Below are positions 586 through 34,485 of a DNA stretch of 34,485 nt, in pieces. The stretch is taken from the IMG/VR virus record IMGVR_UViG_3300005613_000224, positions 1 through 34,485 of that record. One strand, given 5' to 3'. Within the stretch, counting starts at the first letter, position 1, and each line of letters starts with the position of its first letter. Source of the DNA: a virus. The notes beneath the pieces are model-generated. The model was not told where the DNA came from. It was given only the letters and a program-made list of their open reading frames with translations, and did no database searches. The position numbers and the translations under genes are program-made.

Positions 586-593
586 TATATTTG
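586..593 (+). promoter_or_regulatory. -7 promoter element (TATATTTG) of the initiator leader, allele A
   Basis: TATATTTG matches the Bacteroidota -7 motif TAnnTTTG. It begins 5 nt after the stop of the 158-aa gene. There is no good TTTG at 19-20 nt upstream (TTG at 571 is only 12 nt away), so it may need an activator. The surrounding run, including GTCAAACGGTCACGGG, is identical in allele B, which supports a functional site. Transcription would start near 600, at the 5' arm of the leader structure. Confidence 0.55.
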
Positions 594-599
594 TCAAAC

Positions 600-698
600 G
601 GTCACGGGCTGAAACATAAGTGATCAAAGAAATTATTAATAACCTTTGCAATGAAATCGGAATTCAGCCCCCGACGGATTTGCAAAGGTTTTTTTTAT
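600..698 (+). ncRNA. Structured leader RNA / attenuator before the initiator gene, allele A
   Basis: Three helices can be drawn. P1: AACCTTTGCAA (641-651) with TTGCAAAGGTT (680-690), followed by T689-696, an intrinsic terminator. P2: TCGG (657-660) with CCGA (671-674). PK: the 5' segment GGGCTGAA (606-613) with TTCAGCCC (663-670) in the P2 loop. Internal loop bases TGAA and GGAT are conserved. In allele B all three helices remain possible through compensatory changes, while the linker GTGATCAAAGAAATTATTAA is unchanged. PK pairing before P1 completes could delay or favour termination. The initiator ATG (704) follows the U-tract by 7 nt. The regulatory role is inference; the structure is well supported. 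Confidence 0.8.
641..696 (+). terminator. Intrinsic terminator within the leader (allele A)
   Basis: A perfect 11-bp stem (641-651/680-690) with a branched apical region is followed by eight T (689-696). It lies between the leader promoter and the initiator start codon, so it must be conditional for the initiator to be made. Confidence 0.75.
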
Positions 699-703
699 TC
701 AAT

Positions 704-1486
704 ATGAATACATATGAACTCTCTCGGAACTGGTTTGATTTTAGCTTTTCGAATCCCGACAAGATAAAACCTATTCATTCAGCCGTTTATTTCTTCGCGA
801 TTGAGCATTGCAATAGGTTAGGATGGAAAGATAAATTTGGATTCCCTTCTCAAATGGTTATGGAGGCAATCGGTGTCAAGAATTGGAGGACTTATTCTAA
901 GGCGTTGAATGATTTAGTCGAATGGGGATTCATTCAGATGATAGAAATCAGTAAAAATCAGTACAGTTCAAATATAATTGCTATTGTAAAAAATACCAAA
1001 GCACAGTCAAAAGCATTAGACAAAGCACTGCAAAAGCATGGTACAAAGCAAAGTCAAAGCACTGTTAGTATAGATAAACAATTAAACAATAAACAAGAAA
1101 CAATAAAACAATATAGTCAGAACGTTTTGCAAACGTTTGACGACTGTCTAAAATTATTTGATGATCATCTTCATCCGAAAACAAGAAAACAGTCTGATAA
1201 TTGGAAGGACACGATCGACAAATTAAATCGAATCGAAAAGATTCCTTTCGAAAACATTTTGGATATTGTCAGGAAAACGCGTGAAGATCCGTTTTGGTCC
1301 AAGAACTTTTTGTCACTTACCAAATTAAGAAAAAAAGATTCAGACGGCGTTCTGTACTGCGTGAAGTTTAATGAACAAATCAAATCAAATGCAAAAAATA
1401 AACGAAATAATTCAAGCCAGCAAGCCGTCAGCGACGAACGACTTGCAGAAATTTACGCAAAGGTGTTCGCTGACAAAAAAGAATGA
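704..1486 (+). CDS. Replication initiator (lambda O-like layout), 260 aa, allele A
   Basis: The N-terminal ~100 residues (NPDKIKPIHSAVYFFAIEHC, then GFPSQMVMEAIGVKNW and LVEWGFIQM) resemble the winged-helix replication domain common in Bacteroidota phages. A hydrophilic linker (about 100-135) is encoded by iteron DNA. The C-terminal part (from YSQNVLQTF) is shared with allele B and probably contacts helicase or loader (inference). A GTG at 620 is in frame, but I start at ATG 704 because the upstream codons lie in the RNA leader and allele B has its ATG at the matching place, where the upstream frame does not continue. It overlaps the next gene by 116 nt. Confidence 0.7.
   Translation: MNTYELSRNWFDFSFSNPDKIKPIHSAVYFFAIEHCNRLGWKDKFGFPSQMVMEAIGVKNWRTYSKALNDLVEWGFIQMIEISKNQYSSNIIAIVKNTKAQSKALDKALQKHGTKQSQSTVSIDKQLNNKQETIKQYSQNVLQTFDDCLKLFDDHLHPKTRKQSDNWKDTIDKLNRIEKIPFENILDIVRKTREDPFWSKNFLSLTKLRKKDSDGVLYCVKFNEQIKSNAKNKRNNSSQQAVSDERLAEIYAKVFADKKE
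997..1066 (+). other. Probable replication origin iterons, allele A
   Basis: Six copies of AAAGCA begin at 998, 1010, 1022, 1033, 1045 and 1056, spaced 11-12 bp, about one helical turn. Most are preceded by C or A and extend to AAAGCAnnG (AAAGCACTG twice). They lie in the linker of the initiator gene, as the lambda ori lies inside gene O. An AT-rich tract follows at once. Confidence 0.6.
1067..1117 (+). other. AT-rich tract beside the iterons, possible DNA unwinding element, allele A
   Basis: An almost G/C-free stretch with repeated AAACAAT words follows the six iterons and ends where the constant initiator C-terminal block begins (1110). Its position matches the AT-rich half of a lambda-type origin. 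Confidence 0.45.
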
Positions 1487-2720: not shown

Positions 2721-3164
2721 ATGTTAGCAACAATAACCATATCAATTTCACTATTCATCCAGTCACCAATCGAATTAGACAGGGCTTCGACTTACAATTG
2801 TGAAGTAAGCCAATGCGATTCTGATCCGTTGACGACTGCTGATGGTAGTCGAATAGACTTGGATAAACTTGCAAATGGTCAACTTCGGTGGTGCGCTTTG
2901 TCTAGGGATTTGATTTATGACGAACACCGTCAAAAGTTACACAAATACGATACAACCGTTTTCAGAGGCTTTTTTCGTTTTGGTGATACAATCATCGTCG
3001 AAAGCATTTCAAGTCCGCAAATCAACGGAAAGTGGGTTGTACGGGACTGTATGAATGCAAGATACAAACGGTCGATTGATTTTCTTTTCGATCCGAAGAA
3101 TAACAAACCTAAACTTGGGACGCCTAAAGATGTTATAATAAAAAATAAACCAAAACAAAGATGA
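2721..3164 (+). CDS. Secreted 3D-domain (double-psi beta-barrel) protein, 147 aa
   Basis: A hydrophobic N-terminus (residues 1-15, LATITISISLFIQS) looks like a signal sequence. The rest matches the 3D domain family: TYNCEVSQCDSDP, TTADGSRID, CALSRDLI, then FGDTIIVES and NGKWVVRDCMNARY with SIDFLF. In known relatives (MltA/YuiC-type barrels) the conserved aspartates serve peptidoglycan cleavage; the aspartates in SRDL, GDTI, VRDC and SIDF fit. It could act on the host cell wall early, or support lysis at a distance from the lysis genes. It overlaps the next gene by ATGA. Its C-terminal tail (NKPKLGTPKDV) recurs in the small product at 4405-4497. Confidence 0.65.
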   Translation: MLATITISISLFIQSPIELDRASTYNCEVSQCDSDPLTTADGSRIDLDKLANGQLRWCALSRDLIYDEHRQKLHKYDTTVFRGFFRFGDTIIVESISSPQINGKWVVRDCMNARYKRSIDFLFDPKNNKPKLGTPKDVIIKNKPKQR

Positions 3165-3388
3165 GTAGAGATAATTCAAGTAAAAGAATGTTCGCTAAAT
3201 GGGACAAAGAAGATGCTTTAATGTGGGAACGTAGATACAATACCTGCTTTGAAACTAGAGATAAATTACATAAACAACTAGATGAATGTGTAAACCTCCT
3301 GGATAGAATACTTCTACATGTAGATATAGGTTACACAAATCCATCAATGGAAATGGAAATAAAAGAATTCTTAAAAAAGATACGATGA
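3160..3388 (+). repeat. Direct repeat, unit 1 (whole 75-aa gene)
   Basis: About 228 bp that recur at 4180-4408 with five mismatches; the units are 1020 bp apart. The homology stops sharply at the start codon and stop codon, so the unit copied is one gene rather than an insertion element. Confidence 0.85.
3161..3388 (+). CDS. Hypothetical 75-aa protein, first copy of a duplicated gene
   Basis: A charged helical protein (MFAKWDKEDALMWERRYNTC, then KLHKQLDECVNLLDRIL) with a likely coiled coil at residues 30-52. No family recognised. It starts by ATGA overlap with the 3D-domain gene and ends by ATGA overlap with the Cys-rich gene. The whole gene is repeated at 4181-4408 with five base differences, all changing the protein. 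Codon use favours AGA. Confidence 0.6.
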   Translation: MSRDNSSKRMFAKWDKEDALMWERRYNTCFETRDKLHKQLDECVNLLDRILLHVDIGYTNPSMEMEIKEFLKKIR

Positions 3389-4179: not shown

Positions 4180-4408
4180 GATGCCTAGAGATAATTCAAG
4201 TAAAAGAATGTTCGCTAAATGGGACAAAGAAGATGCTTTAATGTGGGAACGTAGATACAATACCTGCTTTGAAACTAGAGATAAATTACATAAACAACTA
4301 GATGAATGTGTAAACCTCCTGGATAGAATACTTCTACATTTAGATATAGGTTACACAAATCCATCAATGGAAAGGGAAATAAAAGAATTATTAAAAAAGA
4401 TACGATGA
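4180..4408 (+). repeat. Direct repeat, unit 2 (whole 75-aa gene)
   Basis: Partner of 3160-3388. Recombination between the two direct repeats would delete the three genes at 3385-4179. Confidence 0.85.
4181..4408 (+). CDS. Hypothetical 75-aa protein, second copy of the duplicated gene
   Basis: Same length as the copy at 3161-3388. The changes are S2P (two bases), V54L, M65R and F70L; there is no silent change among five substitutions. It starts one base after the preceding TAA and ends in an ATGA overlap with a 30-aa frame. The near identity indicates recent duplication or gene conversion. Confidence 0.6.
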   Translation: MPRDNSSKRMFAKWDKEDALMWERRYNTCFETRDKLHKQLDECVNLLDRILLHLDIGYTNPSMEREIKELLKKIR

Positions 4409-4500: not shown

Positions 4501-4668
4501 ATGAAAGAAATAGAAAATAAGATTCAAGAAGCGAAAAACGAAAGGCAGAATATTAAAAATGATATTGCTGAAAAAATCACAATGATAAGAGTTAGAGAAG
4601 CTGAACTTAGAGCGATTGAATCGTTTATAGACCAATTAAATGATTTAAAAAACAAAATAAACAAATAG
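4501..4668 (+). CDS. Small coiled-coil protein, 55 aa
   Basis: The frame runs from ATG 4501 to TAG 4666. The product is a single charged heptad-rich helix (IENKIQEAKNERQNIKNDIA, then ELRAIESFIDQLNDLKNKI). The start context TAGAAGATG is repeated at 4672. Last clear gene of the rightward operon; function unknown. Confidence 0.5.
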   Translation: MKEIENKIQEAKNERQNIKNDIAEKITMIRVREAELRAIESFIDQLNDLKNKINK

Positions 4669-4696
4669 AAGATGAGTGATACTCAAAAAACTGAAT

Positions 4697-4743
4697 TTGC
4701 GCGCGTTTTTTTCAGTTTGCGCGCGTATTTTTCAGTTCGCGCC
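4697..4743. repeat. Two 20-bp tandem repeats with GCGCGC cores at the meeting point of the operons; likely terminator
   Basis: Unit 1 (4697-4716) is TTGCGCGCGTTTTTTTCAGT; unit 2 (4717-4736) differs at one base; a third begins at 4737 (TCGCGCC). The self-complementary GCGCGC of unit 1 can pair with that of unit 2, followed by GTATTTTT, a rightward terminator-like shape. A second hairpin pairs AAACTGAA with TTCAGTTT. The site lies between the end of the rightward genes and the tape measure stop (4752). Confidence 0.5.
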
Positions 4744-4751
4744 TGTTGAAA

Positions 4752-7073
4752 TTACAACGTTGAAATATCCGCAATGTTCGAAAGTTCGTTTTGTGTCTTG
4801 TTGATTTCAACCTGACTGATCACGACGGTCGGACCTTGATTCAGTAACGCATCTGTGTCGGTTGTGATTTCGTCACCTCCACCGCCTCCGGTATTGTTTC
4901 CGGTATCGTTTCCAATATCACCCGTGTCAATGTTTGGCGGTGTGAATGTTGGCGGTGTGATCGAACCTGCTGAACCTTGGAATTTCTTTGATGCCACCAG
5001 TGCCGCTTGTGCGATTCCGATTCCTCCTGCGGTTGCAATAGCCGCAATTCCCAACGGTGATGGAGGCGGTCCGAATTGCGCGATACCTTTGACAATTGCC
5101 TGCGCTGTATTGATTCCAATTTCAAGCAATGCGATTGCTTTGTTTCTTTGGAATTGACGTCGGGCAATCTTATCTTCCTCCTGCGCCGCTTTCTTTTTTA
5201 TTTCATATTCAGCCTTCGCGGATTCAAATTCGATCTTTGCCCGTTGATGCGCTGAAAGTTTTTCGTTGTTAAGTTCGGCGGCTGTGTTGTTCTTTAATAT
5301 TTCAAGTTCATTATCGGAACGCTCTTGAATGTTTTCGATTCTGCGTTCACCGACGTCGTTCAACGTGTCGTTGATTTGCATGATTGAATCCAGTCCAAAT
5401 GCAACGCCCTCCTGAACCTTTCCAAGCATTTCCTTCATTTCATCAGGAATGTTGTCAATTCCTTTTTTGTATGCCTGACCGATTGCAAGAACAAATTCAT
5501 CGAACTTGCCGAGCGTTTCCTCCATCTGAATTTCCATTTCGGACATGAACTCTTCATCATCGACAATGTCATCAAACGAAATAAAGTTTTTGTCTTTTAT
5601 GTTCTGACTGTATTCGGTCCAACTGTCGGTTGATTCCTGGAAAAATATTTCTTCCGCTTCAAGTTCTTTATCTAATGAATCTTTTTTGTCTTTGACGCGT
5701 TGTTTATTTTGCTTTTTGCGTAGTCCTGTGATTTTGTTTTCGATCAACTCAACATTAAATGCGTTTTTTTCTTGTAGTTCATTTGCTTGTTGTTGTAACA
5801 AATCCAAATTAATTCCCTGCGCTTTCATTGAGGCTTTAAATTCCTCCATGTCTTGACCTCTCAACTGCCTGATTCGTTCATATCTGTCAATGTATGAATC
5901 AATGATTCTTTGTGTGGCATCAAATACCGCCTGCGCCTTGATTAGCTCTTCTTTTAGAATTTTTTCTGTGATTTCTGTTGATGATTCTCCTGCGGCCTCT
6001 CTTAATTGTTTTTCTCGGTCTAATTCGGTTATTTTTTTGTCCTGTGCCTGAATAATTGCATCACGTTCCTGCTCAATCTGTTCAACTCGTTTCTTATGCT
6101 GTTGATCAATTTCAGCCTGTGCCTGTCTGCGCTGTTTCATCAATTCATCTTCAGCCTCAATTTGTTCGTATGTTTTCCCTGTCCACCATTCAACAAACGC
6201 ACGAATAGGAAGAAAATATTCCGCAAGTTTACCAAGTGCCTCGGTTGATTTTCCAATCCATTTCGTGAATGATTCCCAGTTCGCAACAAGCAAACCTATC
6301 CCGACAACGATCGCACCGATTCCCGTTGAAATCATCGCAAGCCTGAACGCCTTCATTGCTCCTGTTGATGTTCCAACGGCGGCGGTGTATAATGCCGTCG
6401 CTCCTGCCGCCGCCTTTGTTGCAATTCCTTGACGAATTTGCGCCGCAACACTTGCGTTTGTGTCAACCGTCACTCCTTTTGTTGCTGCTCCAACAAGTTT
6501 CAACATCAACGCGCTTTCCTTCCTTGTGATGTTGTGCAATTGTTCAATGCCCATCATCGCGGATTGAGCCGCTTGCAATTTAACAAATGTTTCCTGCAAT
6601 TTTTCATTTTCAACACCTACCAAAGCCGCAACGCCTCGAAATGCTGAATAACCTGCCAAAACTCCCTGACCTATTTGCATAGATGCTTGCAAATTAACTG
6701 AATCGTTAGCAAGGTTCTTCACTTCATTATCTAAATCATCAAGTCGATCACGTAAAGCCGCCGCTTGTTGCAATGCCTCCTTTCCAACTGGTGAAGTCCT
6801 TCCGGCGGCTAGTGCAATACTTTGATAATCTTGCATTGTTTTCCGTAACTGTCGGAAATTCAATTCGCCGCTGTTTACTTGTTTGTTAATTTCATCAAGT
6901 TTCTGCCTGAAATTGTCAACGCCATTTGTTTCGTTACCGATTTTTTTGACTGATTCGTCAGTTTTTTTTGCTTGCTGGTCGATTTGTTGCAATTCATTTT
7001 CAACAACCTGTGCGCCTTGTTCAAATCCTTTCGGATCTAATTTCAAACTGACCGTGATTTCTCTTTCTGCCAT
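4752..7073 (-). CDS. Tail tape measure protein, 773 aa
   Basis: A long protein with Ala/Gln/Glu-rich helical segments: N-terminal coiled coil (about 20-125), a hydrophobic stretch STGIGAIVVGIGLLVANW (about 249-266), long charged coiled coil (about 295-450, KKRVEQIEQERDAIIQAQ), and a Gly/Pro-rich hydrophobic region towards the C-terminus (GPPPSPLGIAAIATAGGIG). This order is typical of siphovirus tape measures, which set tail length and form the DNA channel. It begins with a TAATG overlap with the upstream virion gene and is the last gene of the leftward late region. Confidence 0.85.
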   Translation of the reverse strand: MAEREITVSLKLDPKGFEQGAQVVENELQQIDQQAKKTDESVKKIGNETNGVDNFRQKLDEINKQVNSGELNFRQLRKTMQDYQSIALAAGRTSPVGKEALQQAAALRDRLDDLDNEVKNLANDSVNLQASMQIGQGVLAGYSAFRGVAALVGVENEKLQETFVKLQAAQSAMMGIEQLHNITRKESALMLKLVGAATKGVTVDTNASVAAQIRQGIATKAAAGATALYTAAVGTSTGAMKAFRLAMISTGIGAIVVGIGLLVANWESFTKWIGKSTEALGKLAEYFLPIRAFVEWWTGKTYEQIEAEDELMKQRRQAQAEIDQQHKKRVEQIEQERDAIIQAQDKKITELDREKQLREAAGESSTEITEKILKEELIKAQAVFDATQRIIDSYIDRYERIRQLRGQDMEEFKASMKAQGINLDLLQQQANELQEKNAFNVELIENKITGLRKKQNKQRVKDKKDSLDKELEAEEIFFQESTDSWTEYSQNIKDKNFISFDDIVDDEEFMSEMEIQMEETLGKFDEFVLAIGQAYKKGIDNIPDEMKEMLGKVQEGVAFGLDSIMQINDTLNDVGERRIENIQERSDNELEILKNNTAAELNNEKLSAHQRAKIEFESAKAEYEIKKKAAQEEDKIARRQFQRNKAIALLEIGINTAQAIVKGIAQFGPPPSPLGIAAIATAGGIGIAQAALVASKKFQGSAGSITPPTFTPPNIDTGDIGNDTGNNTGGGGGDEITTDTDALLNQGPTVVISQVEINKTQNELSNIADISTL

Positions 7074-10428: not shown

Positions 10429-11591
10429 AGAACCGCGCTTTTGTACGTTGGTAATTTAACCATAATTTCCTCAAGGAAGATGATGTCGTTCTCGGTTGTC
10501 TTTTCCTCTATAGTTCTGTTTTTGACTGCTCGCCTGATCAATGATGCATCTGTCGGATCTTCTTCCCAAACCGCAGGTGATGCAATGAAATTATAAATGA
10601 TCCAATTTTGAACGGCTTGCGGTAACCAATCGGTGACACATTTCATTTCGCGTTCAATTGTTTTCGAATAATCAATGTCACGCCCGTTTTGATCGCCAAA
10701 TTCGAACGAACTCCCATTCCATGAACCGAACGTCCTGATGTAGCCTTTCGATTGAACAGAACCCATTCGACGCGTTAAAAGTCCAATTGAAAGCGAATCG
10801 ATTGAACCCCATTGCGAAAAGAAATGGAATCGTTTATATGTCGAATAAACAAGTGAACGATCAATGTCAATTCTTTGCGTTTGCATTCCTGCGCCTGCGT
10901 TTGCAGATATTTCGTAATATTCAGCCGCTTCGAAATTGGCTGTCGTGATTGATAAAGCTGATGCAACAATGACCGCAGGTGAAACATTGCAAATCAATAA
11001 TTGAAAGGATGTCGCCGTGAAATTAACTGTGTCAGAAACGATTGAAACGCCGTCCGAATCAAATAACTCAACTTTGAACGCCGTGATTGATGTTTCGTCG
11101 TTGATCATTAGCAACCTGATTGATTCGTTTTCCTCTCTGACCTTTGGTGTGTATGGCAAATCATTCAGCCACAAACCAGGCGCGCCATAAATGTAATCAG
11201 TTGAATCCCATGCGATGAAATCTTCATCCGTCATTCGTGATTTCCATGCAACAATGTTTGTTCCTGCTGTGCTTGCTTGATCGGTTGCCGGTGTTCCGTA
11301 TCTTTCAACGATTGTGATTCGGCATTCGCAATAATTTGCCGCGTCTGCAATGAGGTCCGAACCGAGCGCAGGTAATGTGCAATAATTTGAACAATGATTC
11401 GATGCGTCATATCTTGCATAAATTCCCGATTCAGGGAAAACGACTTCATTTGAAATCAACGTGTCATTGATGTAAACCTTCACAACAAAATAGAAATTAT
11501 CCTGTGCCGTTTGATCGCTTGAGAAAGTCCAAACAACTGGATTGTCTGATGGTGTGAATGAATCAGGTGTCTGATGTATAGTGACCGCCAT
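10425..11591 (-). CDS. Tail structural protein, 388 aa
   Basis: Starts MAVTIHQTPDSFTPSDNPVV. Beta-rich with an Ig-like N-terminal half, several cysteines (CSNYC, CEC) and a more helical C-terminal end. Homologues of this kind sit next to the large tail protein in Bacteroidota phages; a distal tail or hub-adjacent role is inference. It is coupled to the genes on both sides (ATGA with 10428; 1-nt gap to 11593). Confidence 0.5.
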   Translation of the reverse strand: MAVTIHQTPDSFTPSDNPVVWTFSSDQTAQDNFYFVVKVYINDTLISNEVVFPESGIYARYDASNHCSNYCTLPALGSDLIADAANYCECRITIVERYGTPATDQASTAGTNIVAWKSRMTDEDFIAWDSTDYIYGAPGLWLNDLPYTPKVREENESIRLLMINDETSITAFKVELFDSDGVSIVSDTVNFTATSFQLLICNVSPAVIVASALSITTANFEAAEYYEISANAGAGMQTQRIDIDRSLVYSTYKRFHFFSQWGSIDSLSIGLLTRRMGSVQSKGYIRTFGSWNGSSFEFGDQNGRDIDYSKTIEREMKCVTDWLPQAVQNWIIYNFIASPAVWEEDPTDASLIRRAVKNRTIEEKTTENDIIFLEEIMVKLPTYKSAVL

Positions 11592-32654: not shown

Positions 32655-33215
32655 TTTATTTGATTTTTGATTTTCCTTTAAAAATTGGACAGGGATTTGA
32701 TTGAACCACCCTTCAAGACTGAAGCCCGTTCCGTGTTCTTTGACAAAATTCCAGGTGTCTTTTGATTCAATCCAATATGAGAAAATCAACGAACCTGGTT
32801 GCAAGTTCTGATCTTTAAACGCTTCAGGAATGTTTTGTTTGTTATCCCATACGAAATAAGATTCGATCATGTACGCATCACGAACCTTCTTGCCTGCATC
32901 ATGCATTAAATTCACGTTGTTGTGATAGCCGCCTTTTGCAAATTTCTTCATGATTTCGAACGTGTCTTGTTTTGACAGATAAACGTCGTATTCGTAACCG
33001 TCCGGATCACGTCGATAAATCAGTAAATTTGTAGCGATTGCGACACCTGTGACCACTTGCTTTTCGCTGTTGAACATTGTTTTGACCTTGATTTCTCGCG
33101 GTGCTTTGCTCATTGTGGTCCATGATTTTCCGTGCGCAGGTGAATCAACCAACGCCATGAAATCCATGCCCTCGGTCATTTCGTCAATTGCCAATCGATA
33201 AACTGGTCGCTTCAT
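31956..33215 (-). CDS. Prohead protease (XkdF-like) fused to repeat domain and scaffold, 419 aa
   Basis: Residues 1-175 form a serine protease domain: candidate H105 (NLMHDAG) and S166 in GTGFSLEGWF, the usual prohead protease motif. Residues ~226-345 contain two related beta repeats (DTVQWDGDLAEGVSIFVVPA; AIYYDGTELVEGTALFLDEE). Residues ~347-410 are a coiled-coil scaffold with a basic end. An internal ATG at 32654 (MSEKKKSLFERLG, M188) could yield the scaffold alone, as in lambda C/Nu3. It precedes the capsid gene. Confidence 0.8.
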   Translation of the reverse strand: MKRPVYRLAIDEMTEGMDFMALVDSPAHGKSWTTMSKAPREIKVKTMFNSEKQVVTGVAIATNLLIYRRDPDGYEYDVYLSKQDTFEIMKKFAKGGYHNNVNLMHDAGKKVRDAYMIESYFVWDNKQNIPEAFKDQNLQPGSLIFSYWIESKDTWNFVKEHGTGFSLEGWFNQIPVQFLKENQKSNKMSEKKKSLFERLGFGTSEPKRAKYDAKQKYAEAVNTDGDTVQWDGDLAEGVSIFVVPAEGEPILAPEGEMTIDMDGEMILIRVDENGVITSVEGIVEMANVMRIDGVAIYYDGTELVEGTALFLDEEMTEPAPDGPHDLEGGISIVIEDGKLVSIEEVAEEEELAEVEEAMKAMRNEYETKFSAQKEAFEGQVKTLASEIEELREAVERLSEQKKAKKAKSTHSGGWRALRN

Positions 33216-33251
33216 GTTATTAAGAGTAACACGAAAAAAAAATGTATCTTT

Positions 33252-33282
33252 TTTGCTTTTGTTATTATTATTATTAATTTTG
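33252..33282 (+). promoter_or_regulatory. Promoter of the rightward operon, allele B
   Basis: TTTG (33252-33255), 19-nt spacer, TAATTTTG (33275-33282): same geometry as allele A with one substitution in the spacer. The leftward protease gene begins at 33215, so the region 33216-33307 must also hold a leftward promoter; I see only TACATTTT, a poor match. Confidence 0.7.
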
Positions 33283-33307
33283 ATTTAAATAATTAAAATT
33301 TAAAAAC

Positions 33308-33784
33308 ATGGACAGAACAAACAAAATCACACAAAAGTACTTTCACGCTTTGAAGGATCTGCATGAATTATTAAAATGCACCGATCAATTTCATGCAACA
33401 AAATTCGAAAGTCAACGAAACGTTCCACACAACTTCATTTTATGCGCGGTCAAACACAAACTGATTGAACGCTCCGGAACAAAAAGAAATTACAAATACA
33501 AATGGAACACGATTCCCCCGAGTTTGGAAATGGCTGTGGAATTAAGATCTCAAATGACGAAATATCAACAGCAAAAAAAGGCTGAACGTGAACAATCTGA
33601 AAGCCAACACAAAATTCAATACCAATCGAATCAAGATCAGAATCAGAAACAAAAATCCAATCTTGATCCGGTAATTCAAAAAGAACACACAACGCAATCA
33701 ATTCAGATTAATAATCATTTTATCACAAAATCATTTTCGATATTTTGGGGATTATTTAAATTTGAACGCAGGATTGAAAAATAA
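33308..33784 (+). CDS. Putative winged-helix-like regulator, 158 aa (allele B)
   Basis: Same length as the gene at 105-581 and about 85% identical. The conserved parts are SGTKRNYKYKWNTI and the C-terminal FSIFWG-FKFERRIEK; changes cluster at residues 13-45 and 85-90 in the presumed binding domain, plus scattered linker positions. Divergence in step with the RNA leader and origin downstream suggests it may recognise an allele-specific site. Confidence 0.6.
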   Translation: MDRTNKITQKYFHALKDLHELLKCTDQFHATKFESQRNVPHNFILCAVKHKLIERSGTKRNYKYKWNTIPPSLEMAVELRSQMTKYQQQKKAEREQSESQHKIQYQSNQDQNQKQKSNLDPVIQKEHTTQSIQINNHFITKSFSIFWGLFKFERRIEK

Positions 33785-33788
33785 TTGT

Positions 33789-33796
33789 TATATTTG
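33789..33796 (+). promoter_or_regulatory. -7 promoter element of the initiator leader, allele B
   Basis: TATATTTG with the same flanks as at 586-593 in allele A. Transcription would start near 33803. Confidence 0.55.
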
Positions 33797-33802
33797 TCAA
33801 AC

Positions 33803-33899
33803 GGTCACGGGTTCAAAATAAGGTGATCAAAGAAATTATTAATAAGCCTGATAATGAAAGTAGCTTGAACCCCTACTGGATTTATCGGGCTTTTTTTAT
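33803..33899 (+). ncRNA. Structured leader RNA / attenuator, allele B
   Basis: P1: AAGCCTGATAA (33844-33854) with TTATCGGGCTT (33882-33892), one G-U, then T-run to 33897. P2: AGTAG (33859-33863) with CTACT (33873-33877). PK: GGGTTCAA (33809-33816) with TTGAACCC (33865-33872). Relative to allele A, two PK pairs, five P1 pairs and three P2 pairs are changed on both strands, while the linker and internal-loop bases TGAA/GGAT stay. This is direct comparative support for the structure. Confidence 0.8.
33844..33897 (+). terminator. Intrinsic terminator within the leader (allele B)
   Basis: An 11-bp stem with one G-U and seven T (33891-33897), 7 nt before the initiator ATG at 33905. Same position as in allele A. 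Confidence 0.75.
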
Positions 33900-33904
33900 T
33901 CAAT

Positions 33905-34485
33905 ATGGCACAAGGAAAAAAATCATTCATATTGTATTTAGACCAACGCGGTATCTTTGACAAGTTAACCGATGAACAGGCAGGAAGATTGATCAAACAT
34001 ATTTACGCTTATTGCGCTGATGAAAATCCTGAATGCGATTTTGTGACGGACTTAGCATTTGAATCGATCAAACAGGCTCTGAAACGTGATTTGAAAAAAT
34101 TTGAATCAATCAAAGAAAAACGGAGAAAAGCCGGAAGAAAATCAGCAGAAAAACGCGCTGAACAAAAGTCAACAAATTCAACACATGTTAAAAGTGTTGA
34201 ACAAACGTCAACAAATCCAACTGTTAATGATAATGATAATGTTAATGTTAATGTTAATGTTAATGTAAATGATTCTTTAAATAAAGAATATAGTCAGAAC
34301 GTTTTGCAAACGTTTGACGACTGTCTAAAATTATTTGATGATCATCTTCATCCGAAAACAAAAAAACAGTCTGATAATTGGAAGGACACGATCGACAAAT
34401 TAAATCGAATCGAAAAGATTCCTTTCGAAAACATTTTGGATATTGTCAGGAAAACGCGTGAAGATCCGTTTTGGTCCAAGAACTT
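33905..34485 (+). CDS. Replication initiator, allele B, truncated by the window end (193 codons present)
   Basis: The N-terminal ~90 residues (FILYLDQRGIFDKLTDEQAG, RLIKHIYAYCADENPE, KEKRRKAGRKSAEK) belong to the DUF6291-type domain seen in initiators of Bacteroidota phages and differ completely from allele A. A repetitive Asn/Val/Asp linker follows (about 105-122). From YSQNVLQTFDDCLKLFDDHL it is identical to allele A but for K/R in HPKTKKQ. The start lies just after the leader terminator. The frame is open at the window edge. Confidence 0.75.
   Translation, partial: MAQGKKSFILYLDQRGIFDKLTDEQAGRLIKHIYAYCADENPECDFVTDLAFESIKQALKRDLKKFESIKEKRRKAGRKSAEKRAEQKSTNSTHVKSVEQTSTNPTVNDNDNVNVNVNVNVNDSLNKEYSQNVLQTFDDCLKLFDDHLHPKTKKQSDNWKDTIDKLNRIEKIPFENILDIVRKTREDPFWSKN
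34159..34221 (+). other. Origin-like direct repeats, allele B
   Basis: Two 24-nt direct repeats at 34159-34182 and 34198-34221 (core GTCAACAAATTCAAC against GTCAACAAATCCAAC) with two mismatches, 39 nt apart. They lie in the linker of the initiator gene at the same place as the AAAGCA iterons of allele A but with unrelated sequence. Confidence 0.5.
34223..34280 (+). repeat. Hexamer repeat tract (GTTAAT/GATAAT), possible DNA unwinding element
   Basis: Eight tandem hexamers (GTTAAT, GATAAT twice, GTTAAT four times, GTAAAT) encode the NDNVNVNV linker. Very AT-rich and directly after the 24-nt repeats, it has the place of the AT-rich part of a lambda-type origin. Slippage here would change linker length by two residues per unit. 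Confidence 0.55.

Follow-up and report, generated by a model that had tools for sequence, protein, structure and literature searches.

The leaders and the genes behind them

The window, by which we mean the whole 34,485-nt stretch of viral DNA analysed (IMG/VR record IMGVR_UViG_3300005613_000224), contains two copies of a structured leader of roughly 95 nt, each on the plus strand and each directly upstream of a gene for a replication protein. Comparison of the window with itself revealed that its ends overlap with approximately 90% identity (1–1486 versus 33204–34485); the window comes from a circular phage genome of about 33.2 kb, two strains of which were joined in one assembly. The two alleles reported in the preliminary description are thus both real, but they belong to two co-existing strains of one circular phage. 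In the overlapping ends the N terminus of the initiator is switched (DnaD-like versus DUF6291), whereas its C-terminal part is 99% identical. The strains differ in the leader segments K, P1 and P2 and have P0, the linker and the promoter in common. Elsewhere in the window, in the early region, two small ORFs (3161–3388 and 4181–4408), 1 kb from each other, belong to a direct repeat of 251 nt with 95% identity between the copies, the result of a recent gene duplication. The features of the two loci, all on the plus strand, are listed below.

Allele a
586..593, +, −7 promoter box, TATATTTG, read from the sequence; predicted RNA start at about 598
600..698, +, leader a, by direct reading
600..605, +, 5′ strand of P0, GGTCAC (MFE fold; 6/6 P0 pairs change on both sides in homologues)
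606..613, +, K, the kissing segment in the P0 loop, GGGCTGAA (8-bp complement of 663–670)
614..619, +, A-rich loop spacer from K to P0′, ACATAA
620..625, +, 3′ strand of P0, GTGATC (MFE fold, covariation)
626..640, +, conserved linker, AAAGAAATTATTAAT, partly conserved and A/U-rich
641..651, +, 5′ strand of P1, the terminator-like stem (covariation)
652..656, +, 5′ side of the internal loop, TGAAA (TGA conserved)
657..660, +, 5′ strand of P2, TCGG (covariation)
663..670, +, K′, the kissing segment in the apical loop of the terminator hairpin, TTCAGCCC (covariation, K matching)
671..674, +, 3′ strand of P2, CCGA (covariation)
675..679, +, 3′ side of the internal loop, CGGAT (GGAT largely conserved)
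680..696, +, 3′ strand of P1 (680–690) and remainder of the U-run (691–696)
704..1486, +, first gene behind leader a, DnaD-like helicase loader/replication initiator, 260 aa (PHROG 2514, E = 7e-10)

Allele b
33789..33796, +, −7 promoter box, TATATTTG, read from the sequence
33803..33899, +, leader b, by direct reading
33803..33828, +, P0 hairpin, with K = GGGTTCAA at 33809–33816 (sequence, MFE fold)
33829..33843, +, linker, the same as in allele a (alignment)
33844..33897, +, terminator-like hairpin: P1, TGAA, P2, K′, GGAT, P1′, U-run
33905..34485, +, first gene behind leader b, DUF6291 replication protein, truncated by the contig end (PF19808, E = 3.5e-20)

Direct reading recovered in both alleles the elements first described, namely an 11-bp P1 followed by a T-run, a P2 and an 8-bp pairing between a 5′ segment (K) and a loop (K′). 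In allele b, P1 is formed by 33844–33854 and 33882–33892 (11 bp, with the U-run), P2 is AGTAG/CTACT and K′ is TTGAACCC at 33865–33872. The estimate of about ten compensated pairs and one G-U was accurate: ten pairs differ on both sides between a and b (five in P1, two in K and three in P2) and one becomes G-U, and the linker and the TGAA/GGAT internal loop, said to be constant, are identical in the two alleles. MFE folding revealed a hairpin that had been missed, in which P0 (GGTCAC/GTGATC, 600–605/620–625) closes a 14-nt loop around the 5′ segment. Because this segment sits in the P0 loop, K:K′ is a loop-to-loop kissing interaction; of the pseudoknot leader originally proposed, the pairing is retained and the 5′ segment as a free strand is not. 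The MFE z-scores of the two leaders, with the K pairing left out, were −2.7 and −3.1. The promoter at the start of the leader and the start codon 7 nt past its end were also found as described, as the flavobacterial −7 box TATATTTG and as a U-run leading to the ATG at 704 or 33905.

A covarying family in Bacteroidota phages

DUF6291 relatives in IMG/VR have the same architecture 5′ of their start codons, in differing sequences. The homologue search proposed in the preliminary description was carried out with a covariance model (R1) that was seeded with eight leaders and held P0, P1 and P2 only, K:K′ being left out. At E ≤ 0.01 (E-values of the covariance models come from a shortened calibration), R1 yielded 67 matches, 63 of them distinct, in IMG/VR contigs when run over 80 sources, and the strong covariation that had been anticipated was found among them. 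A second model (R2) was built from the R1 matches, and the set was widened by a mechanical descriptor scan, by relatives of the allele-a initiator and by a DNA pattern consisting of the linker, CC and AATGAA only. This gene-blind pattern led to 50 contigs, every one of which contained a complete leader according to R2 (50/50). With R2 at E ≤ 0.01, the leader was present in 42 of the 80 loci fetched via the initiator, several of which are truncated on their upstream side.

Among cultured phages, Flavobacterium phage lillamy gave an R2 match (E = 0.004). Looser relatives built on the same plan occur in Polaribacter phage Danklef, Cellulophaga phage phi13:2, Olleya phage Harreka and Flavobacterium phages elemoC and 11b; these five have weak covariance-model scores and stand outside the covariation statistics. 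Extra covariance-model matches in phages Harreka, phi13:2 and elemoC and in L087 were ordinary terminators and were discarded. An exact search of IMG/VR with the 22-nt linker gave no match, and a P0-based pattern search returned one true locus and nine chance matches. DUF6291 was not found in plasmids, and a scan of genome contigs for it revealed two Firmicutes loci only. At L188 (1868–1959) and L222 (2646–2744), K is purine-rich instead of pyrimidine-rich and the K/K′ polarity is swapped; at L188, K lies at the 3′ side of the P0 loop.

In the alignment of the 63 distinct leaders (about 28 effective rows at 80% identity), 97.7% of cells pair, against 66.5% in shuffles, and 525 cells are compensated, against 138. 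None of 500 shuffles reached either value, which for 63 distinct homologues excludes chance. Two-sided changes were found in 27 of the 29 base pairs (P0 6/6, K 7/8, P1 10/11, P2 4/4), in an alignment that was fitted to P0, P1 and P2 and favours those three helices, and 98.8% of P1 cells are paired. Sliding the partner by one base lowered pairing to about 50%. Because K:K′ was absent from the model, it provides the least biased test. It forms 7–9 bp in 67/67 R1 matches, and all 24 distinct K types match their own K′ (24/24), swapped partners reaching 7 bp in 1.8% of cases. Among 16 leaders found by R2 whose sequence, in that register, was absent from the training set of R2, a few of them re-cut training members, 14 have 7–8 bp and two have 6 bp. 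When every pair of columns was scanned, with average-product correction, 23 pairs of the four helices ranked first, and no alternative (antiterminator) helix covaried across the 63 leaders.

The K:K′ duplexes have energies of −9 to −15 kcal/mol, and G-U accounts for 12% of pairs in P1 and 1% in K:K′. The loop spacer is 6 nt long in 57 of the 63 distinct leaders (52% A) and the distance from P0′ to the TGA is 23–26 nt in all 63; such rigid spacings would fit a fold within one molecule. Both the unpaired core and the spacings are more constant than the helices. Between close relatives P0 changes most, a figure that alignment shifts may inflate, and K changes no faster than P1 or P2. These rates therefore lend no support to diversifying selection for immunity types, and a hypervariable K as the mark of immunity groups was rejected.

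Placement between promoter and start codon

A TAnnTTTG-like box ends 3–6 nt before P0 in 52 of the 63 distinct leaders. As the TAnnTTTG box of F. psychrophilum spans −12 to −5 (PMC9723704), the RNA is predicted to start about 2 nt before P0. At the other end, the longest T run after P1 comprises 6–9 residues in 61/63 distinct leaders, and behind the U-run a same-strand ATG was found in 76/76 descriptor-defined leaders at a median distance of 19 nt (quartiles 17–20; more than 40 nt in a few leaders), which leaves little room for a separate promoter. A stem followed by a U-run thus stands between promoter and first codon, the general layout of intrinsic terminators and attenuators. A simple terminator scan did not call the leader hairpin, because the 'loop' of P1 is about 28 nt and the scan allows 8. 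At L004, a phage protein of 105 aa that contains an RNA polymerase alpha C-terminal domain (4549–4866; PF03118, E = 4.8e-14), possibly a phage transcription factor, is encoded directly 5′ of the leader promoter.

The operons behind the leaders encode DUF6291, DnaD-like, O-like or primosomal proteins and then primase/helicases, sometimes preceded by a small acidic or HNH-endonuclease-like protein. Often the first gene encodes an acidic protein of 58–72 aa; these proteins share very little identity with one another and gave no Pfam match above cut-off:

L206, 1657–1833, acidic first gene
L173, 2323–2508, acidic first gene
L143, 2295–2498, acidic first gene
L115, 6844–7023, acidic first gene
L098, 2671–2850, acidic first gene

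Leader-headed operons at L134 (1339–3738), L113 (1681–4080) and L095 (3783–6182) contain an 800-aa BT4734-like/PriCT-1 primase-type protein (PF08800 and PF08708 at L134), with an HNH-endonuclease-like protein 5′ of the primase in place of the initiator. At L008 an a-type leader precedes a DUF6291 gene. No protein gene was found that constantly accompanies the leader. The initial suggestion of control specific to the initiator was not borne out, as the same leader heads operons that start with several unrelated proteins, and one leader type with unrelated initiators makes the initiator unlikely as the sensed factor.

Copies of K outside the leader

In the window, the K and K′ octamers occur in the leaders only, apart from one stray K′ octamer at 10802. 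Across the family, copies of K of at least 7 nt lie near the start codon of 13 leaders, compared with 2.3 when K is swapped. The excess comes mostly from one K type, CCTTCGAC, with single cases at L043, L008 and L018; a further entry in the count, TTTAAAT at L209, was spurious and AT-rich and was dropped. Part of the loci with K = CCTTCGAC, namely L093, L095, L096, L110, L111, L113, L116, L123 and L134, have CTTCGAC, most of K, just before the start codon. At L043 most of K is repeated just 5′ of the ATG (AACGACC), at L008 the match lies in the first codons and at L018 it is more distant. Because the repeat abuts the start codon in these CCTTCGAC loci and L043, the translation start could there be a second partner for K′. 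That such copies serve as a translation target in general was rejected, the excess being mostly of one K type.

Relation to known RNA elements

Rfam 15 gave no match for the window or 16 relatives, except one tRNA, and the best sub-threshold match scored 19.2 bits against a threshold of 65. No such leader was found described in the open-access literature, and DUF6291 was named in no paper found; the list of 224 RNA motifs of Weinberg 2017 may contain an overlapping, unnamed motif that is absent from Rfam. The RNA can accordingly be called undescribed within Rfam and the open-access literature, as had been supposed.

Kinship with P4 CI RNA, P1 c4 and the pT181/pIP501 leaders, which the preliminary description had offered as precedents, was not upheld. 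Like P4 CI and the P1/P7 c4 RNA (RF01695), the element would be a short untranslated leader-derived RNA that draws its specificity from short complementary segments and ends transcription prematurely, before the replication or early genes of a phage. In contrast to them, its complement lies inside the same structure, in a loop–loop arrangement, and there is generally no extra copy outside the element. The two complementary segments that P4 CI and c4 have outside the RNA were not found, though K recurs near the ATG in about a dozen relatives, most of which belong to one K type. The c4 model RF01695 matched neither the window nor the 16 relatives. With pT181/pIP501 the leader shares a terminator just 5′ of the replication initiator gene. 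In those plasmids a counter-transcript from the opposite strand acts on the leader, and a pre-emptor pairs with an arm of the terminator. Here K pairs with the apical loop and both P1 arms are free; as no competing helix (antiterminator) covaries, the pT181 mechanism is unsupported.

A likeness in architecture is offered by IsrK of the Salmonella prophage Gifsy-1, a phage leader with its own promoter and an intrinsic terminator (PMC4825925, where P4 CI RNA is also covered). IsrK gives a short terminated RNA, about 77 nt long, besides an operon mRNA made by readthrough, and it affects in trans how its own longer transcript is translated. The corresponding transcripts of the present leader are predicted. 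IsrK is not known to show a kissing between a 5′ hairpin and the terminator loop, and homology was compared via Rfam only. By analogy, our leader might also act in trans on its own readthrough form.

In transcriptional preQ1 riboswitches, pseudoknot formation favours the terminator hairpin (PMC11625349). The leader differs in that the partner is the terminator loop, the pairing sequence is not fixed and a constant ligand pocket coupled to an alternative expression platform cannot be made out. A metabolite riboswitch was rejected, there being no mutually exclusive helix and a pseudoknot sequence that varies freely; a ligand is still conceivable. A ToxI-like type III toxin–antitoxin RNA was also discarded, since each leader has one element with replication proteins downstream, as opposed to tandem repeats before a toxin. 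Leaders that act by premature termination are a known kind; a 5′ hairpin that kisses the terminator loop at phage replication operons appears to be a new variant.

A probable conditional-terminator leader with kissing loops

Comparison of the sequences establishes the fold of four helices with K:K′, the promoter box, the U-run and the nearby start codon. The reading that we favour, and hold to be probable though by no means certain, is that the element represents an uncatalogued family of kissing-loop, conditional-terminator leaders heading Bacteroidota phage replication operons. Transcription would start about 2 nt 5′ of P0, and the nascent RNA would fold P0, the K loop of which would pair over 8 bp with K′ of the terminator-type hairpin, made up of P1, the UGAA/GGAU internal loop and P2 and joined to P0 by a fixed-length A/U-rich linker. 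K:K′ may form before P1 closes and thereby tune how efficiently the terminator hairpin forms. Most RNA polymerases would stop at the hairpin and its U-run and so leave a leader RNA of about 97 nt, and the readthrough fraction would serve as the mRNA for initiator and helicase. The element would in this way set the dose or timing of the replication proteins, and the leader probably limits the amount of replication machinery. Candidate inputs for the setting are the number of phage genomes (via the leader RNA), a phage or host protein and the speed of elongation. An RNA attenuator, as had been proposed, is the most economical reading of a promoter, a stem with U-run and an adjoining replication gene; the covarying structured RNA at the promoter and its stem and U-run beside the gene are borne out, and termination, its regulation and action in trans are predictions. 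With no covarying antiterminator, the sequence does not reveal a route for the regulation of readthrough.

Several other readings draw on the same observations. The promoter box, the terminator-like 3′ end, the stable compact fold and loops with 8-nt recognition sequences would also suit a small RNA gene, whose stable product would act in trans, by targeting RNAs of the phage or host or by serving as decoy for a protein, the genes downstream living on leaky readthrough; Bacteroides has many 5′-UTR-derived, terminator-ended sRNAs (PMC7366714). A free-standing sRNA gene needs no gene start about 19 nt behind it on the same strand, which is present in 76/76 leaders, K′ is fully satisfied by K in the same RNA and no conserved second target was found, so that we regard this reading as unlikely. 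More doubtful is a self-recognizing system that would control immunity or copy number as P4 CI or pT181 do, in which a resident leader RNA would enforce termination and K would define immunity groups. It could explain why there are at least 24 distinct matched K types, why co-existing strains with P0, linker and promoter in common differ in K, P1 and P2, and why leader and initiator can be exchanged separately (at L008 a DUF6291 gene follows an a-type leader), and it has phage precedents in P4 CI RNA and IsrK. Against it, K diversifies no faster than P1/P2 and P0 changes most among close relatives, the partner of K is a loop of the terminator and not an arm, no alternative helix covaries, K-like copies by the start codon occur in few leaders, no integrase was found among the window proteins scanned and relatives are present in phages isolated in culture. 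There is only a small chance that leader RNAs of the same K pair loop to loop between molecules and set termination in the replication operon of another phage genome.

Alternatively, the constant core (linker, UGAA/GGAU loop and A-rich spacer) might bind a phage or host protein that decides on termination. That the unpaired core and the spacings vary less than the helices would be expected of such a protein-sensing leader, UGAA/GGAU is able to form tandem sheared G-A pairs, which commonly act as a motif for protein binding, and an alpha-CTD-like gene lies just 5′ of the leader at L004; autoregulation by the initiator is unlikely, however, as one leader type serves unrelated initiators, no gene was found that always accompanies the leader, and we rate protein sensing as rather unlikely. 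A 5′ UTR stabilizer or translation enhancer, with the U-run and the AT-rich 19 nt as ribosome-binding region and no terminator tail, would account for the narrowly kept distance of about 19 nt between U-run and ATG and for a stem and U-run before an AT-rich start region free of Shine–Dalgarno sequences; Bacteroidota are described as lacking these sequences and tuning initiation by mRNA structure (PMC6847099). The U-run is pinned to the base of P1, with 6–9 T in 61/63 leaders, which is a hallmark of intrinsic terminators and renders this reading improbable. A DNA element, either a cruciform origin or an initiator-binding site, would fit the position beside replication initiator genes, but 12% of P1 pairs are G-U, promoter and U-run placement are strand-specific and kissing loops make sense only in single strands; we give this reading almost no weight.

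Implications

Bacteroidota phages are abundant in water and gut, and the control of their replication onset is largely uncharted. A structured RNA family so rich in compensatory changes that stands before several unrelated initiators points to a shared RNA-level switch that standard annotation misses. If leader RNAs of the same K did act on each other, Bacteroidota phages would have a system for superinfection exclusion or copy number that is coded in RNA loops, and the K types would be its incompatibility groups. Tests of K:K′ are feasible with the relatives carried by cultured phages of Flavobacterium, Cellulophaga, Olleya and Polaribacter.
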